This document shows positions 11,982 to 17,617 of a stretch of 22,424 nt of DNA, piece after piece; the first letter of the stretch is position 1, and each line of letters opens with the position of its first letter. Source of the stretch: a virus; IMG/VR virus record IMGVR_UViG_3300026120_000011, positions 1 through 22,424 of that record; one strand, 5' to 3'. The notes under the pieces were generated by a model, which did no database searches, was not told the DNA's origin, and saw nothing but the letters and a program-made list of their open reading frames with translations. The translations under genes were made by a program, and so were the position numbers.

Positions 11982-12610
11982 TATTCATCATACCCCATTT
12001 GATCTATAAGGCTTGTAGTAGCAGTAAAGAGAGTTCTTATTTGTAGTCTGACTTTACTGAAGATTGGCCAACCATTCTGATCGGTTTCCTTGCTATACGT
12101 AGGCTCTGCTTCCGTTACAATAATGCCCGGAAGCCTAATAAATCCTATTCTGCAGCTTATTCTTCTACCTGATCTTTCCTGATTATCTGCTCCAAATGCT
12201 TCAATGATAGAAGGACCCGGAGGAATAAGTCCTATTCCATTTTCTTCAGCATTACCATCATCTGGAAGGGGTAATTTGATCAGAGCTCGAGTAGGGGATA
12301 CAACATCAGTATAGGCATTTGTTTGCATGTGAAAAGCTACTGTAATAGAGATAGATAAAGGTTGGGTTTTTTGCCAGATCTGAAACCCAAGCTGTTTAAA
12401 TTGTCCGCTAAATCCGAATCCTAAAATATCTCTAGATAAAGAACCTAACATACTAAGTCCGGTACTGGCTCCCCCGCTCACTAAGTCTCCGAATTCCGAG
12501 TTTAAAGAAAGCGTTATATCTTCTTCTAAGAGAATATCAACTCCTTCTGTTCCAGGAAGAAGCGCTCCATTTTGTTTAAACTCTACTCTTTTTCCTCGTG
12601 GAATTATCAT
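11981..12610 (-). CDS. Tube initiator / baseplate cap protein, gp48/gp54-like
   Basis: 209 residues, directly after the tape-measure gene with a TAATG overlap. The central sequence (FSGQFKQLGFQIWQKTQPLSISITVAFHM, then DVVSPTRALIKLPLP) is typical of proteins with the tail-tube fold that cap the hub and start tube polymerisation (T4 gp48/gp54 and simpler equivalents). The C-terminal half is beta-rich (RISCRIGFIRLPGIIVTEAEPTYS, FSKVRLQIRTLFTATTS). The Mu-like layout places a gpN/gp43-type protein at the same position, which is the main alternative. Either way it should join the tape measure and tube to the hub. Confidence 0.65.
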   Translation of the reverse strand: MIIPRGKRVEFKQNGALLPGTEGVDILLEEDITLSLNSEFGDLVSGGASTGLSMLGSLSRDILGFGFSGQFKQLGFQIWQKTQPLSISITVAFHMQTNAYTDVVSPTRALIKLPLPDDGNAEENGIGLIPPGPSIIEAFGADNQERSGRRISCRIGFIRLPGIIVTEAEPTYSKETDQNGWPIFSKVRLQIRTLFTATTSLIDQMGYDE

Positions 12611-14871
12611 TAACTTCCTCCAAGTCTTAGATTATTGAAATTGAATTGTGGCGTAGACTGAGAGTTTATGATATTTCCTCCACTTCTAGAGGTAACTTCA
12701 ATCAAAGTGGATAACTGCTGAATCATTGAATCGAATTTATTTTCATAATTTGTCCCATTTAAAGAAGCCATCCCACTCATGTCACTGGTTACTTCCCGAT
12801 CCATTCTATTTTCTACTATAGTGGGATTATTTTTAGTAGCTAGAATAGTATCATCTGGAGAAGTGTGGATTATAGTTCCATCGGGACGGATTATAGCATC
12901 TTCTACTGATTCTGATCTACTTGGAAGTTCAATACCACGCCTATCAAGCTCTGCTTGCATAAAGGCAGTATCTTGCTCCATGGCTCTTCTAACTTGATTA
13001 AAACGAGCATCCTCCATGCCGGATTCTGCTCGGTATCTGTCAACCAGCTCTTCAAAATCTTCTGAGTCACTTTTAAACAAATTCCCAAATAAACCAGTTG
13101 TACCACCTAAGGCGTCTACCATAGCTTGACGGTCTGCGTTTTCTCTTAATGAGTCACCTATACCACCAAAGAAGTTGCCTAAAGTATCAGCCGCCCCCTG
13201 AAAGAAAGCGCCTACGTTTTCTTTAACTTCATTGAGCCTTTCACCTACAGCAGGCCCGAATCCATCTCGTTGAATATCTCCAAAAAACTGCCCTACGGCA
13301 CGTCCAGCGTTAGCTATAATACCGTCGTTTCCCTCAAAGAGATTGTTTAACCTGTTCTCTACGGTAACTCCGAGTCCATCTTCCTTAACATCATTTGAAA
13401 AATCACGTATTCCATCTGCTACGTTACCAAAGAACTCTCTAACGTTTTGAGCTGCGTCTTGCGCTCTATCTCTTATAGCTCTTCTAAGTCCTCTTTCTTT
13501 TACATCAGCGAAGAAGTCGCCCACTCCTTCACGAACATTACCTAGAAAACCTGATATTCTACCCTTAAACCCTTCAAAAAGTTCACGAGCCGTTCTTGAG
13601 TTAGAACCAAAAATTCCCTCTCTTACCCGAGTAAAGAGTCCTCTCGCTCCTTCTATCGCGTTTCCGAAGAAATTGCTGATGCCTTCTTTTGCGTTGTCTA
13701 CCCAAGCTCGAATTCTTTCTTGTTTTTCATCTGGAAAAAGACCTACTACTCCATTAAATATGGTAGTACCGAAGCCCTTAACAAAATTAAAGCCAGTTTC
13801 AGCTAAACCAGCTACTGTTTGACCTACGGTACCTCCAATTTTACTAAGCAAGCCTCGTTCTTCATCTTGCCATATTCCTCGAATGTTGCCAACTCTTTCC
13901 TGTACTCCGTCAGTAACACCGCGTACTCCGCCTGCAAGAGCACCAAAAATACCCTTTCCTGCATTTTTTAAGGTAACCCCCATTTTCTGCAAGAAGGTAG
14001 CGTTTTCATCGTTCCAAACATCACGTATTTCTTCACCCATACTCTCGGCTTCTTTATCCCATTCATTCTTGAAAGCAATAGCAGTTCCAGCTATAGTCGC
14101 AGCTAAAGCAACCCAAGGGCCAGCTGCAGCGAGAGCGGGGCCAATACGTCCCATCATCCCACCTAAGCCTCTTCCACCACCTCTTACTCCTAAACGGCTC
14201 ATCATGTTAGAGAGAATGCCACCACCACCTTCTGCTTCTACTGATTCTGAACCACTAGCTGCGTCAAGTAAAGTGTCTGCAAGATAAACTGCGCTCGCTC
14301 CTTCAATGCCATACTTAAGCATCTGAGTTCTACGAGGAGCAATTCTTTTCTTATCTTCTTCTTCGCTTCCACCGCCTAATAGCGAAGGAATAGAAGAGGA
14401 TATGGAGTCAGATTCCCCAGAGTCTGACTTACCCTTAAATAAGGAGACTATTCCATCTCCAGCAGAAGATATCCCTTTCTTAAAAGAGTCTTTAACATTT
14501 ATTCCTGTCAACTCTTGAAGAGGATCGGTTATCAAGGAAAGAGGCGTCTTAATTCCATCGACGAGAGAAGTCGTAGTGGTAGAAACAGTACTTTTAATTT
14601 TGTCTAGCGAAGAATCTTTAAAATCTTTTATTCCGGATAAAAAACCTTTCTGAATTTCTTTTACATCGGATCCTTGATTCTTAAGAGTTTCCGATAATTC
14701 GTCTGTTTGTTTCGCTAATTCTGGGGTTATCTGTTTAAGATACTCTTTGGTCAGATCTGTATTAGCCCCAATCTCTTGGAGATACTGACTTTGTTCTTTT
14801 AGAAATTTGTTGGCTTCACTGTCAGAGCCGTCATCAACTCTTGTAAGCCCAGCTGGAATCATATCGCTCAT
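12610..14871 (-). CDS. Tape-measure protein
   Basis: 753 residues, the longest gene in the window, directly after the chaperone genes as is usual. The N-terminal 130 residues are helical (SEANKFLKEQSQYLQEIGANTDLTKEYLKQI). A glycine-rich hydrophobic segment (about 236-267, GPALAAAGPWVALAATIAGTAIAF) could insert in a membrane during DNA delivery. From about 390 to 575 the sequence is built of amphipathic repeats with FF pairs (GDFFADVKERGL, RDFSNDVKEDGL, GQFFGDIQRDGF). At roughly 0.15 nm per residue, 753 residues predict a tail of about 110 nm. There is no clear Shine-Dalgarno sequence; AACTATAAAA ends three bases before the ATG. There is no lysozyme or peptidase domain that I can see. Confidence 0.9.
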   Translation of the reverse strand: MSDMIPAGLTRVDDGSDSEANKFLKEQSQYLQEIGANTDLTKEYLKQITPELAKQTDELSETLKNQGSDVKEIQKGFLSGIKDFKDSSLDKIKSTVSTTTTSLVDGIKTPLSLITDPLQELTGINVKDSFKKGISSAGDGIVSLFKGKSDSGESDSISSSIPSLLGGGSEEEDKKRIAPRRTQMLKYGIEGASAVYLADTLLDAASGSESVEAEGGGGILSNMMSRLGVRGGGRGLGGMMGRIGPALAAAGPWVALAATIAGTAIAFKNEWDKEAESMGEEIRDVWNDENATFLQKMGVTLKNAGKGIFGALAGGVRGVTDGVQERVGNIRGIWQDEERGLLSKIGGTVGQTVAGLAETGFNFVKGFGTTIFNGVVGLFPDEKQERIRAWVDNAKEGISNFFGNAIEGARGLFTRVREGIFGSNSRTARELFEGFKGRISGFLGNVREGVGDFFADVKERGLRRAIRDRAQDAAQNVREFFGNVADGIRDFSNDVKEDGLGVTVENRLNNLFEGNDGIIANAGRAVGQFFGDIQRDGFGPAVGERLNEVKENVGAFFQGAADTLGNFFGGIGDSLRENADRQAMVDALGGTTGLFGNLFKSDSEDFEELVDRYRAESGMEDARFNQVRRAMEQDTAFMQAELDRRGIELPSRSESVEDAIIRPDGTIIHTSPDDTILATKNNPTIVENRMDREVTSDMSGMASLNGTNYENKFDSMIQQLSTLIEVTSRSGGNIINSQSTPQFNFNNLRLGGS

Positions 14872-14899: not shown

Positions 14900-15124
14900 T
14901 TATCCTGAGAAAGGACATCCTCTTCCCGGGTTATCTTTCTTCCATTTAACGAGTTTTCTATACTGAGTAAAAACCATATGAGACGGAGTCTTTCTAATAT
15001 CTTCAAGACTCCAACCAAAGTTGTTAGCCAAATGAAAGAGTATATCCTGTATCGTTTTCTGATTCCACGGACGGTAAAAAATCCATAGGTCGAAATTGAA
15101 ACCTCCTAGTAATTGGAGTATGAT
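14900..15124 (-). CDS. Out-of-frame C-terminal extension of the tail chaperone (frameshift product)
   Basis: In the +1 frame relative to the upstream gene, the DNA is open from just after a TGA at 15127-15125 to a TAA at 14902-14900. It encodes convincing protein sequence: FDLWIFYRPWNQKTIQ, then DILFHLANNFGWSLEDIRK, TPSHMVFTQYRKLVKWKKDN and a short Cys-containing tail. There is no ATG or GTG and only a poorly placed TTG, so independent initiation is unlikely. A shift at codon 310 (+1) would give a 375-residue fusion. A -2 shift at codon 318 would give 376. It ends 28 bases before the tape-measure ATG, which closes what would otherwise be a 150-base gap. The helical, W/Y-rich character suits the 'T' part of a G/GT-type chaperone. 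Confidence 0.7.
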   Translation of the reverse strand: MILQLLGGFNFDLWIFYRPWNQKTIQDILFHLANNFGWSLEDIRKTPSHMVFTQYRKLVKWKKDNPGRGCPFSG

Positions 15125-16028
15125 TCACGGTACAGTCGAAAGTAACCTCTTTGTCTACGCCGAATACAAAATTATTTTTAAGAGCGCGATTATACTCTTT
15201 CCAAATAGTCAAGTCCAATTCTGACAGAATCCTTAACGCTTCTGGAAAATCTTCTACTTTCTTTTCATTCACTGAGTCAACAAGTTGAGCCTGATATGCT
15301 CGAAGATAATCCTTTCCTCTTTCTCGAAGATAACTCATGTATTCATCATATTCATCTTGAGAGTATTCTTCCCTAAGCCGAATTTTTCTCTTTAAACCAG
15401 CATACTTTGTCTCTTCTGTTACATATTTCTTGTTTACAAAATCTTTAGCTATAAGTCCTGTTTTCATTCTAGGAAGTCGCAGTTTAATCTTATCTTTTCC
15501 ATTTGATAACTCAAAAGGCTCTGAAACCTTCTCAGAGAGCTCTAGTGTATTCAGGTTGCTTATGGGTATCTCAGCTATAGATGTATTTTCATTCTTATTC
15601 CGGAGGCTCTGGGGGAGACTCTCATCTACCTGATATCTAAAACCTTCTAGTTTACTTCCCCACCACTTAGCATAAATATTTAGAAGTATTTCAACAGCTT
15701 CTTCTTCATGAAGATCATTAGCGTCGATATCTTCCCACAATAGCTCATTCAAAACCTTAATCATTATCTCTTTTTCATTGTCTTCGTCGATTTCTGATAA
15801 TTCTAAGGCTTCTTCGAAAGTATAATTACGAACATGCACAGAAGAAGGGGCTGTCAACTTTCCTAAGGAAGAAAGCTTTACTTCTATATAATTTGAAGGA
15901 ATACTAACGGGATCAGTATTAACCTTCTCAGCGATTTTTTGCTCTAAATATTTTTTATTCTCTTGTTCTGCTTGTCTGTTCTGTGTAACAAAAAGTAAAT
16001 CTGCCGTAGCTTCTTCATTCTCAATCAT
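15024..16028 (-). CDS. Tail assembly chaperone, zero-frame product (gp26/T4_baseplate-like)
   Basis: 334 residues, placed between the second tube-like gene and the tape-measure gene. This is where myoviruses and siphoviruses encode their frameshifting tail chaperones. Residues about 47-100 (YIEVKLSSLGKL, SSVHVRNYTFEEALELSEI, IKVLNELLWED) have the 'SLG + beta + helix' pattern of the T4 gp26-like baseplate/chaperone family. The rest is charged and helical, ending in TRRFQFRPMDFLPS and a short hydrophilic tail. The ATG 16028 has AAGGAGTG nine bases upstream. A +1 reading frame overlaps the last 34 codons and continues to 14900 as a protein-like sequence, so a longer fused product is likely. It is expected to coat the tape measure before tube assembly. 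Confidence 0.75.
   Translation of the reverse strand: MIENEEATADLLFVTQNRQAEQENKKYLEQKIAEKVNTDPVSIPSNYIEVKLSSLGKLTAPSSVHVRNYTFEEALELSEIDEDNEKEIMIKVLNELLWEDIDANDLHEEEAVEILLNIYAKWWGSKLEGFRYQVDESLPQSLRNKNENTSIAEIPISNLNTLELSEKVSEPFELSNGKDKIKLRLPRMKTGLIAKDFVNKKYVTEETKYAGLKRKIRLREEYSQDEYDEYMSYLRERGKDYLRAYQAQLVDSVNEKKVEDFPEALRILSELDLTIWKEYNRALKNNFVFGVDKEVTFDCTVNHTPITRRFQFRPMDFLPSVESENDTGYTLSFG
15075..15107 (-). promoter_or_regulatory. Probable programmed frameshift site
   Basis: The zero-frame codons run AGG AGG TTT CAA TTT CGA (15107-15090). AGGAGG is both a tandem of rare arginine codons and a perfect internal Shine-Dalgarno sequence. It is followed by two UUU-C sequences on which tRNA-Phe could slip +1. 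Fifteen bases downstream lies the heptamer T TTT TTA in the correct register (15081-15075), a classical slippery sequence that could support a -2 shift into the same frame. Both routes lead to the extension frame, and the sequence alone does not say which is used. Confidence 0.5.
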
Positions 16029-16062: not shown

Positions 16063-17013
16063 TTAAGTCTCGACAATTCTATCTGCTGTAAAATTGACAT
16101 CAAACTGCAAGGCGTCCACGTTATCATAATCTAGTGATACTTCAGAAAGTCCTAATAATTTTAATCCCTCATATCTAAAGGATTTTGTTTCATATGGTGT
16201 CCAAACTGGAACGGATTCTCTGATGATATTTCTTTGTATATTTTGGCTTATTCTCTCTACTCGTTCTTGAGTTACTATTAAAGACCGAGGTTGATTTTTA
16301 GTATCAAAACTCTTTAAAGTAGGAGGTGGATTGGAAGAAGCTCCTGTACTAGAAGAATTACCTATAAGATTTGGTCGTCCAAATACTCCGCCTACTCTAT
16401 TAACCGCATTCACTGCAGACCGTACAGCAGTATTTACAATCTGACCACCTAAGCTTTGAATTAATCCACCTACAATTTCTTGAGTTATAACACTACTTGA
16501 ACTTGCTTTCCTTAACTCTTTTGTTTGTATAAGATTTTTAACTTGAGATCGAATATCCGTAGCTGTAATATTATCATTAAGTCCTTTAGTAAGTTCTTTG
16601 ACATAAATTTCAACCGTTTGTCTGGAGTCTATTCTGAACGACTCGAAGGAAAGAAATCCGGTTCTATGAATAAGATCCTGTGAGCTTCCCTTTTCTACAT
16701 TTTCTCCTTGAGAGATAAAAGTTCCTTGCGTTTCGTCGAAAACATCATTCATCCAGTCTTTGAAATATTGAAATGTTGAAAAATCTCTATTTTCATAAAA
16801 GGTCATAGAGAATTCTCCGATAGGCTCGAATCCAGTATAGGCTTTTTCACCGGTATTGCGAGTCTCGGTTGTTAGATTAATGAAAGGAAGAGTGGTATTT
16901 TGCACTCTAGCTATTAGTGGCCAATCTTCGTTTTCTTTTTTCGAGATAAAAAAATCCCAAAGATTGGCTAGCTGGTGATTGGAATTCTCAAAGGAAGATT
17001 CGATTATGCTCAT
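16063..17013 (-). CDS. Second tail-tube-like protein with central insertion
   Basis: 316 residues. The N-terminal part (NLWDFFISKK, PLIARVQNTTLPFINL, PIGEFSMTFYENRDFSTFQYFKDWMNDVFDE) and the C-terminal 40 residues (FRYEGLKLLGLSEVSLDYDNVDALQFDVNFTADRI) look like the two halves of a tail-tube fold. They are separated by about 150 residues of helical and low-complexity sequence (GVFGRPNLIG, SSSTGASSNPPP). T4 uses the same fold in gp19, gp48 and gp54, so this may be a tube-cap or specialised tube ring protein made in low copy. It is separated from the main tube gene by a strong terminator. The start lacks a Shine-Dalgarno sequence; GACTATTAAC ends four bases before the ATG. Confidence 0.65.
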   Translation of the reverse strand: MSIIESSFENSNHQLANLWDFFISKKENEDWPLIARVQNTTLPFINLTTETRNTGEKAYTGFEPIGEFSMTFYENRDFSTFQYFKDWMNDVFDETQGTFISQGENVEKGSSQDLIHRTGFLSFESFRIDSRQTVEIYVKELTKGLNDNITATDIRSQVKNLIQTKELRKASSSSVITQEIVGGLIQSLGGQIVNTAVRSAVNAVNRVGGVFGRPNLIGNSSSTGASSNPPPTLKSFDTKNQPRSLIVTQERVERISQNIQRNIIRESVPVWTPYETKSFRYEGLKLLGLSEVSLDYDNVDALQFDVNFTADRIVET

Positions 17014-17017
17014 ATGT

Positions 17018-17027
17018 GTTAATAGTC
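17018..17027 (-). promoter_or_regulatory. GACTATTAAC motif before the second tube-like gene
   Basis: One member of a recurrent (G/A/T)ACTAT(T/A)A family that sits in the gaps before eight genes, here just after the terminator and four bases before the ATG. It may be a promoter -10-like element or a start-site signal; its function is not known. Confidence 0.35.
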
Positions 17028-17036
17028 CATAATCAG

Positions 17037-17073
17037 AAAAATAGCCTCCGGTATTATATCTCCAGAGGCTATT
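17037..17073 (-). terminator. Rho-independent terminator after the tube gene
   Basis: On the minus strand, AATAGCCTCTGG pairs with CCGGAGGCTATT (12 pairs, one of them T.G) around a 10-base loop (AGATATAATA), and the stem runs straight into TTTTT. It lies 14 bases beyond the tube gene stop. It should lower transcription of the downstream chaperone, tape-measure and baseplate genes relative to sheath and tube. Confidence 0.85.
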
Positions 17074-17086
17074 ATTATTCTATATC

Positions 17087-17617
17087 TTATAGTCCAGGAA
17101 TAATCTTCAAGAAGTCTAATGTCACACTTACGATGATTGGTTCACCCTCTGCAGTATTATCAAAACTAATACCTCCGAGGTTTTTTAGCCACGCTTGCTG
17201 CATTGTCCAACCCGGGCTTGTTGGGACACCATTACTGTCAGAAGTAAGTACTGAAACATCGGTACGAATATCACTCTCTCCAGTGATAGCCCCCACATCT
17301 TCAGCCATAGTTCCAGAATTATCATCTCCAATATAATTCTTCCATACTAAAAGAGCTTGATAAATAGTCCAATACTTATCTGCTCTAAAGTTGAATGTAA
17401 ATTCGTTTGGAGTAGTAATGCGGCCATTCGGCTTATTAAACTTCTGTGTTTTGTAAGCTACTTCATACTCACCGATTGAAAATTCGGGGATTTCAAAATC
17501 GGTTATTCTAAACTTTAAAGGATCCACATTAGGGAAAAAGCTAAGCGGTGTGATATTCACCTCCGCTTGGTTATTTAGTGCGTCATCCCCTAATGCAAAA
17601 ATTGCTGATATACTCAT
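17087..17617 (-). CDS. Major tail tube protein, gp19-like
   Basis: 176 residues, close to T4 gp19 length. Family landmarks are present: FRITDFEIPEFSIGEYEVAYKTQKFNKPNG (38-66), TTPNEFTFNFRADKYWTIYQALLVWKNYIG (68-97) and a C-terminal VSVTLDFLKI strand. A short Thr/Ser/Gly loop (about 98-130) may face the outside of the tube. The GAGGAGAAT ribosome-binding site before ATG 17617 is strong, as suits a protein needed in many copies. The gene follows the sheath gene by about 40 bases, in the standard sheath-tube order, and is followed by a strong terminator. Confidence 0.92.
   Translation of the reverse strand: MSISAIFALGDDALNNQAEVNITPLSFFPNVDPLKFRITDFEIPEFSIGEYEVAYKTQKFNKPNGRITTPNEFTFNFRADKYWTIYQALLVWKNYIGDDNSGTMAEDVGAITGESDIRTDVSVLTSDSNGVPTSPGWTMQQAWLKNLGGISFDNTAEGEPIIVSVTLDFLKIIPGL

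Follow-up and report, generated by a model that had tools for sequence, protein, structure and literature searches.

A likely +1 frameshift at UUU_CGA in a T4 gp26/gp51-type tail assembly chaperone gene of an uncultivated contractile-tailed phage

We propose that a single gene of the T4 gp26/gp51 family yields a pair of tail assembly chaperones, a short one and a long one, the latter by a +1 ribosomal slip at UUU_CGA (15090..15095, minus strand); comparison of 14 homologous loci makes this reading likely. The gene belongs to an uncultivated contractile-tailed phage, IMG/VR record IMGVR_UViG_3300026120_000011, and we refer to the whole 22,424 nt analysed as the window. At the homologous loci the out-of-frame extension is conserved as protein, and the proposed slip codon is accompanied by a conserved internal Shine-Dalgarno element at a fixed distance of 6 nt.

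Results

A predicted tail chaperone gene with an out-of-frame extension

The zero-frame ORF (15024..16028, minus strand) encodes 334 aa and was assigned as the short tail assembly chaperone (TAC-N, gp26-like) through a match to phrog_150; its stop codon ends at 15024. Just 5' of it are two tail-tube genes with phrog_45 matches (17617-17087 and 17013-16063, together 16063..17617, minus strand), and on its other side lies the tape-measure gene (12610..14871, minus strand; tail length tape measure protein PHROGs, best E 1.2e-12). The order is tube-tube-chaperone-tape measure. In the +1 frame no stop interrupts the sequence from 15124 until 14902-14900 (minus strand). Counted from the proposed slip, the extension (14900..15091, minus strand) comprises 63 codons (DLWIFYRPWNQKTIQDILF...) plus that stop, which is separated by 28 nt from the start of the tape-measure gene, and the long form predicted after a +1 slip has 375 aa. 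Codon alignment and homologue comparison place a two-frame overlap at 15024..15091 (minus strand), 3' of the slip site. An initial annotation, made from the letters alone, had the zero-frame chaperone ending at 15024 and the +1 frame open to 14900, with AGG-AGG-UUU-C at 15107-15098 and a U6A heptamer at 15081-15075; we reproduced all of these positions. Neither tRNA genes nor Rfam families were found within the window.

Because the chaperone protein alone, used as query, returned no relatives from viral contigs or isolated phages, the neighbouring sheath, tube and PmgG-like genes served as queries for homologous loci, followed by whole-record searches. The searches yielded 14 distinct chaperone loci (the window, L002, L005, L014, L015, L023, L024, L025, L027, L028, L031, L036, L047 and L048), whose tree has about nine deep lineages. 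The extension is present in all 14, always in the +1 frame relative to the chaperone ORF, and runs for 57-93 codons beyond the slip point. The initial annotation had read the locus as a frameshifted tail chaperone directly before the tape-measure gene, with +1 and not the common -1 as its target frame, and had looked to homologues lacking the extension as the counter-case; gene order and the shared +1 relation agree with that reading, and no such homologue turned up among the 14.

The translated extension matches, in the same relative frame, those of L002 (E 9e-12, 46% identity), L015 (7e-11) and L005 (0.005). For the part beyond the zero-frame stop, dN and dS were 0.15/0.82 (L015-L027), 0.22/1.27 (L027-L028) and 0.28/1.26 (L023-L025). 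The dN/dS ratio of the extension is about 0.17-0.22 in close pairs with computable dS and 0.44 in the more distant pair L031-L025; dS was saturated for L015-L028 and L031-L015. Judged by these substitution patterns, the extension is evolving as protein, under purifying selection.

The surroundings of the chaperone differ among some related records. In L047 and L048 (with L020 and L004) the chaperone lies tens of kb from the sheath and tube genes, unlike in the window; in L048/L004 it is found at 55-59 kb, versus 106-124 kb for sheath and tube. Two tandem tail-tube-like stretches in L014 (2599-3653) match the same tube protein of the window. A contig from a Treponema bin (L038 8275-8958) has a PmgG-like tail gene related to that of the window, a hint at spirochaete hosts; no chaperone was found on it, and a search of 296 genomes from the phylum of this bin found no relative, which shows little.

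Relation to T4 gp26 and gp51

The short form matches phrog_150 ('baseplate hub') with E 2.5e-7. Both phrog_150 and PF12322 are matched by T4 gp26 as well as by gp51, which consists of a gp26-like part with an extra C-terminal part; the two proteins are described as a chaperone pair (Virology 2022, 566:9, as cited in PMC12846349). PF12322 gave no match to the window protein, and its score for L015 was 21.6 bits, below the 24.5 cut-off. When profiles were compared, the long forms aligned with a small set of T4-type proteins at probability 95.6 and E 1.3e-8, over columns 50-370, which include the extension; single-sequence comparisons were mostly not significant. In PHROG matching the long form did no better than the short form.

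The predicted structure of the window's long form has a mean pLDDT of 85.2 and a pTM of 0.73; confidence is low at the junction (residues 314-317), and the C-terminal part is helical. Among predicted structures, phage baseplate-hub/gp26-type proteins match its fold best (E down to 1.5e-14); a fold search of solved structures with the same model returned nothing significant. By these profile comparisons and structure models, the chaperone is probably a short form of the T4 gp26/gp51 type and the predicted frameshifted product a gp51-like long form.

Placement of the proposed slip

The codons around the frame change read AGG AGG UUU CAA UUU CGA in the window and L031, CGG AGG UUU CAA UUU CGA in L015, CGG AGG UGU CAU UUU CGA in L036, AGG GGG UUC UCU UUU CGA in L002, CGC CCC UUU CGA UUU CGC in L005, UGU ACC UUU CAA CUU GAG in L014 and CGG AGG UUU CUU UUU CAA in L048. 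We place the slip on the second Phe codon (15095-15093), two codons 3' of the UUU that directly follows AGGAGG. In a codon alignment of the 14 homologues this codon is UUU in 77/77 pairs versus 57.5 expected; UUU_C is present at 13/14 loci and UUU_CGN at 12/14. Wherever Arg comes after the second UUU its codon is CGN (12/12), though CGN accounts for only ~31% of Arg codons and AGA is the commonest of them (56%). Overall the codon after the slip codon is CGA, CGC, CGG, CAA or GAG. A zero-frame UUU followed by CGN at the point of frame change is what marks UUU_CGN sites, and the window has this arrangement. A +1-frame stop 5-6 codons 5' of the slip in L025, L047, L005 and L014 bounds it on that side.

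When synonymous codons were resampled in nine lineage representatives, UUU_C had a P of about 1e-4; such values are indicative only, since the motif was recognised in the very sequences tested, and the homologues are few and related, the codon statistics resting on roughly nine lineages. Three observations run counter to the proposed site: L014 has CUU_GAG at the aligned place, with UUU_CAA two codons upstream; L048 has UUU_CAA; and CGA, at 14% of the window's Arg codons, is not the rarest of them.

A search of viral contigs by nucleotide motif alone gave 18 stretches, among them the known loci and two further genuine homologues, L053 and L066/L067, both with blastp E about 1e-91 or lower; these two we left out of the statistics because they had been selected by the motif itself. 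The matches in L055, L058, L062, L063 and L068 have no long open frame upstream and are due to chance.

The first candidate named in the initial annotation lies slightly further 5', at AGG-AGG-UUU-C. A +1 shift there, caused by the tandem rare AGG codons and/or by a slip on the first UUU-C, now seems unlikely. Re-pairing from UUU to UUC would be possible there, the combination of AGG-AGG with UUU-C recurs in L025 and L031, and UUU-C also stands at the first Phe position in L014 and L048; but the first UUU is without codon-level constraint (55 identical pairs versus 57.5 expected), being replaced by UUC in L002 and L027 and by UGU in L036, and the tandem AGG is not kept, the first Arg codon being CGG in 7/14 homologues. 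A slip at the intervening CAA, which would have a prfB-like 3-nt spacing, was also rejected: this codon varies (CAA, CAG, UCU, CGA, CCC, CUU, CAU) and re-pairing would be poor.

The same annotation offered as its second candidate a -2 shift, in the style of phage Mu, at the U6A heptamer (15075..15081, minus strand). Tail chaperones with a -2 shift do exist (Mu; PMC5009743) and the heptamer is in register within the window, but it is found in no other homologue, the corresponding codons being GUC UUC AUA in L002 and GAU UUC UUA in L015. The proposal is scarcely credible also because of a Trp in the +1 frame, encoded 5' of the U6A position as the third residue after the slip. It is kept in 11/14 homologues, whereas the zero frame varies there between M, L and V; reading in +1 thus starts before U6A, and a -2 shift at the heptamer would lose the Trp. 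The U6A of the window also lies in -1 phase (GAU UUU UUA, that is U_UUU_UUA), which the annotation had missed, and the -1 frame is open there for 66 codons (15081-14890, minus strand). We rejected a -1 shift at U_UUU_UUA, as its peptide lacks conservation and a stop follows within 2-33 codons in that frame of the 13 remaining homologues.

There is next to no chance that the frame change comes from slippage of RNA polymerase along the U run or from an indel in the assembly. The window does have a six-T run (15081-15076), but this run is missing from homologues with the identical frame relation, and an assembly indel is excluded because that relation is common to independently assembled contigs.

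An internal Shine-Dalgarno element

Upstream of the preferred slip codon, UUU at 15095-15093, the sequence AGGAGG (15102..15107, minus strand) forms an internal Shine-Dalgarno element 6 nt 5' of that codon and is a probable stimulator of the shift. The initial annotation had recognised the element, and we find it kept in 11/14 homologues, as GGAGG in ten and as AGGGGG in L002, with the 6-nt spacing in every homologue that has it. The predicted duplex with the anti-Shine-Dalgarno sequence amounts to -12.4 kcal/mol in the window and from -10.7 to -15.2 kcal/mol among the homologues with the element; L047 has a partial one (-8.4 kcal/mol), and L005 and L014 are without. None of 200,000 synonymous resamplings of the nine lineage representatives reached the observed Shine-Dalgarno count, again an indicative figure only, and at the AGG preceding the first UUU the codons agree in 44/44 pairs versus 16 expected. 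Since the first Arg codon is so often CGG, the kept unit is the nucleotides GGAGG and not the tandem AGG codons. The check that had been suggested, whether AGGAGG or U6A is conserved in homologues, therefore comes out for GGAGG as a nucleotide element, and against both the tandem AGG codons and U6A.

In prfB, the gene for release factor 2, a +1 shift at the stop codon of CUU_UGA serves autoregulation. The prfB analogy drawn in the initial annotation carries over in part: both cases combine a +1 shift with an upstream internal Shine-Dalgarno sequence, L002 even having AGGGGG, but the analogy is incomplete because the prfB spacer is 3 nt, with a stop codon following, whereas the window has 6 nt and a sense codon. 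A review gives a Shine-Dalgarno spacing of 3 nt for +1 stimulation and 9-14 nt for -1 stimulation (PMC5009743), and the 6 nt of the window fits neither. Downstream of the slip no RNA structure is conserved (fold z-scores from -4.5 to +1.8), and we dropped a stem-loop as stimulator, there being none common to the homologues.

A strong Shine-Dalgarno sequence could also act as a ribosome-binding site, with the extension made as a separate small protein from an independent start or by translational coupling, and L002, L023, L027 and L028 do have an upstream ATG in the +1 frame. We consider this very improbable: in five loci (the window, L005, L025, L031 and L047) no ATG, GTG or TTG precedes the conserved DxWxxYxPW in the +1 frame, as had already been remarked for the window, no start-like codon stands at a fixed distance after GGAGG, and the extension aligns with and completes a gp51-type long form.

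Discussion

From the arrangement of the conserved elements we infer the following course for a +1 slip at UUU_CGA. Most ribosomes would terminate at 15024 and release the 334-aa short form. In a minority, with peptidyl-tRNA-Phe on UUU (15095-15093) and a slowly read CGA in the A site, the P-site tRNA-Phe would re-pair from UUU to UUC in the +1 direction, so that C15092 is skipped. Reading would then continue as DLWIFYRPW... to 14900, giving the 375-aa long form (...TRRFQF-DLWIFYRPWNQK...). The GGAGG six nt upstream probably pairs with 16S rRNA and may thereby hold or pause the ribosome.

Lambda makes a short and a long chaperone, gpG and gpGT, from one gene 5' of the tape measure, by a -1 slip. 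The window resembles lambda in having a predicted short/long pair and a single gene before the tape measure, and differs in the proposed direction of the slip. It has two features of the G/GT type: the position between tube and tape measure, and a protein-conserved out-of-frame extension that overlaps the first ORF at its 3' end. As in lambda, both forms would assemble along the tape-measure protein as a coat, and the long form would use its helical C-terminal domain to bring in tail-tube subunits; these bindings are suggested by gene order and family.

The idea of UUU_CGN for tail chaperones is not new, since TTT-CGC has been proposed for the +1 shift in tail chaperones of HF1-group haloviruses (PMC7230728). 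In HSTV-2 (L051, NC_020159.1) we find UCC_UUU_CGC at 15486-15494, nearly the influenza PA-X site; a +1 slip there gives a long form whose end coincides with the annotated 15813. TTT makes up only 30/222 Phe codons in the sampled genes. Like the window, these haloviruses have a chaperone gene that precedes the tape measure and has a proposed +1 shift at UUU_CGN close to its 3' end. They differ from it in their archaeal hosts, in having no GGAGG six nt upstream and in a shift closer to the end of the ORF, and their chaperone has no evident sequence relation to that of the window. Influenza A PA-X, which shifts at UCC_UUU_CGU, shares the re-pairing of tRNA-Phe, in which UUU is exchanged for UUC while the A site holds CGN (PMC3498833), and the +1 sites of plant amalgaviruses, likewise UUU_CGN, follow the same slip logic; unlike the window, both involve eukaryotic ribosomes and no Shine-Dalgarno sequence.

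What appears to be new, in the literature searched, is UUU_CGN in a T4-type family with a conserved Shine-Dalgarno element at 6 nt, by which a second group of tail chaperones would join the UUU_CGN class of +1 sites. Whether this amounts to a bacterial +1 cassette without earlier description, independent of the halovirus sites and set in an otherwise -1 family, we regard as evenly balanced; in such a cassette GGAGG would stand exactly 6 nt before UUU_CGN, and the mRNA-rRNA duplex would promote the slip or hold the ribosome. It would offer a compact, testable natural case of an internal Shine-Dalgarno sequence whose spacing differs from the one in prfB. The long form would escape ordinary gene finders, which call one frame per gene.

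T4 encodes gp26 and gp51 by two separate genes, whereas the window has one gene with a +1 extension; in cyanophage S-SKS1 (U_UUU_UUC) and Agrobacterium phage Atu_ph04 (U_UUU_UUU) the extension is instead in the -1 frame. This indicates that one chaperone family reaches its short/long pair by three routes, namely gene duplication (T4), a -1 slip (S-SKS1, Atu_ph04) and a +1 slip, in which case the requirement for two forms would be conserved and the direction of the slip would not. The S-SKS1 gp26 gene (L039/L049; HQ633071.1, 187503-188404) has a gp51-like -1 extension, the downstream part of which figures in the annotation as a hypothetical gene of its own, SWZG_00259, and the -1 extension of the Atu_ph04 gp26 gene (L040/L050; MF403007.1, 20985-21835) is unannotated. 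Pseudomonas phage HRDY3 (L019 4557-6310; PQ015379.1) carries a pair of gp26-like paralogues side by side, of which the second is extended at its C terminus, a solution resembling that of T4.
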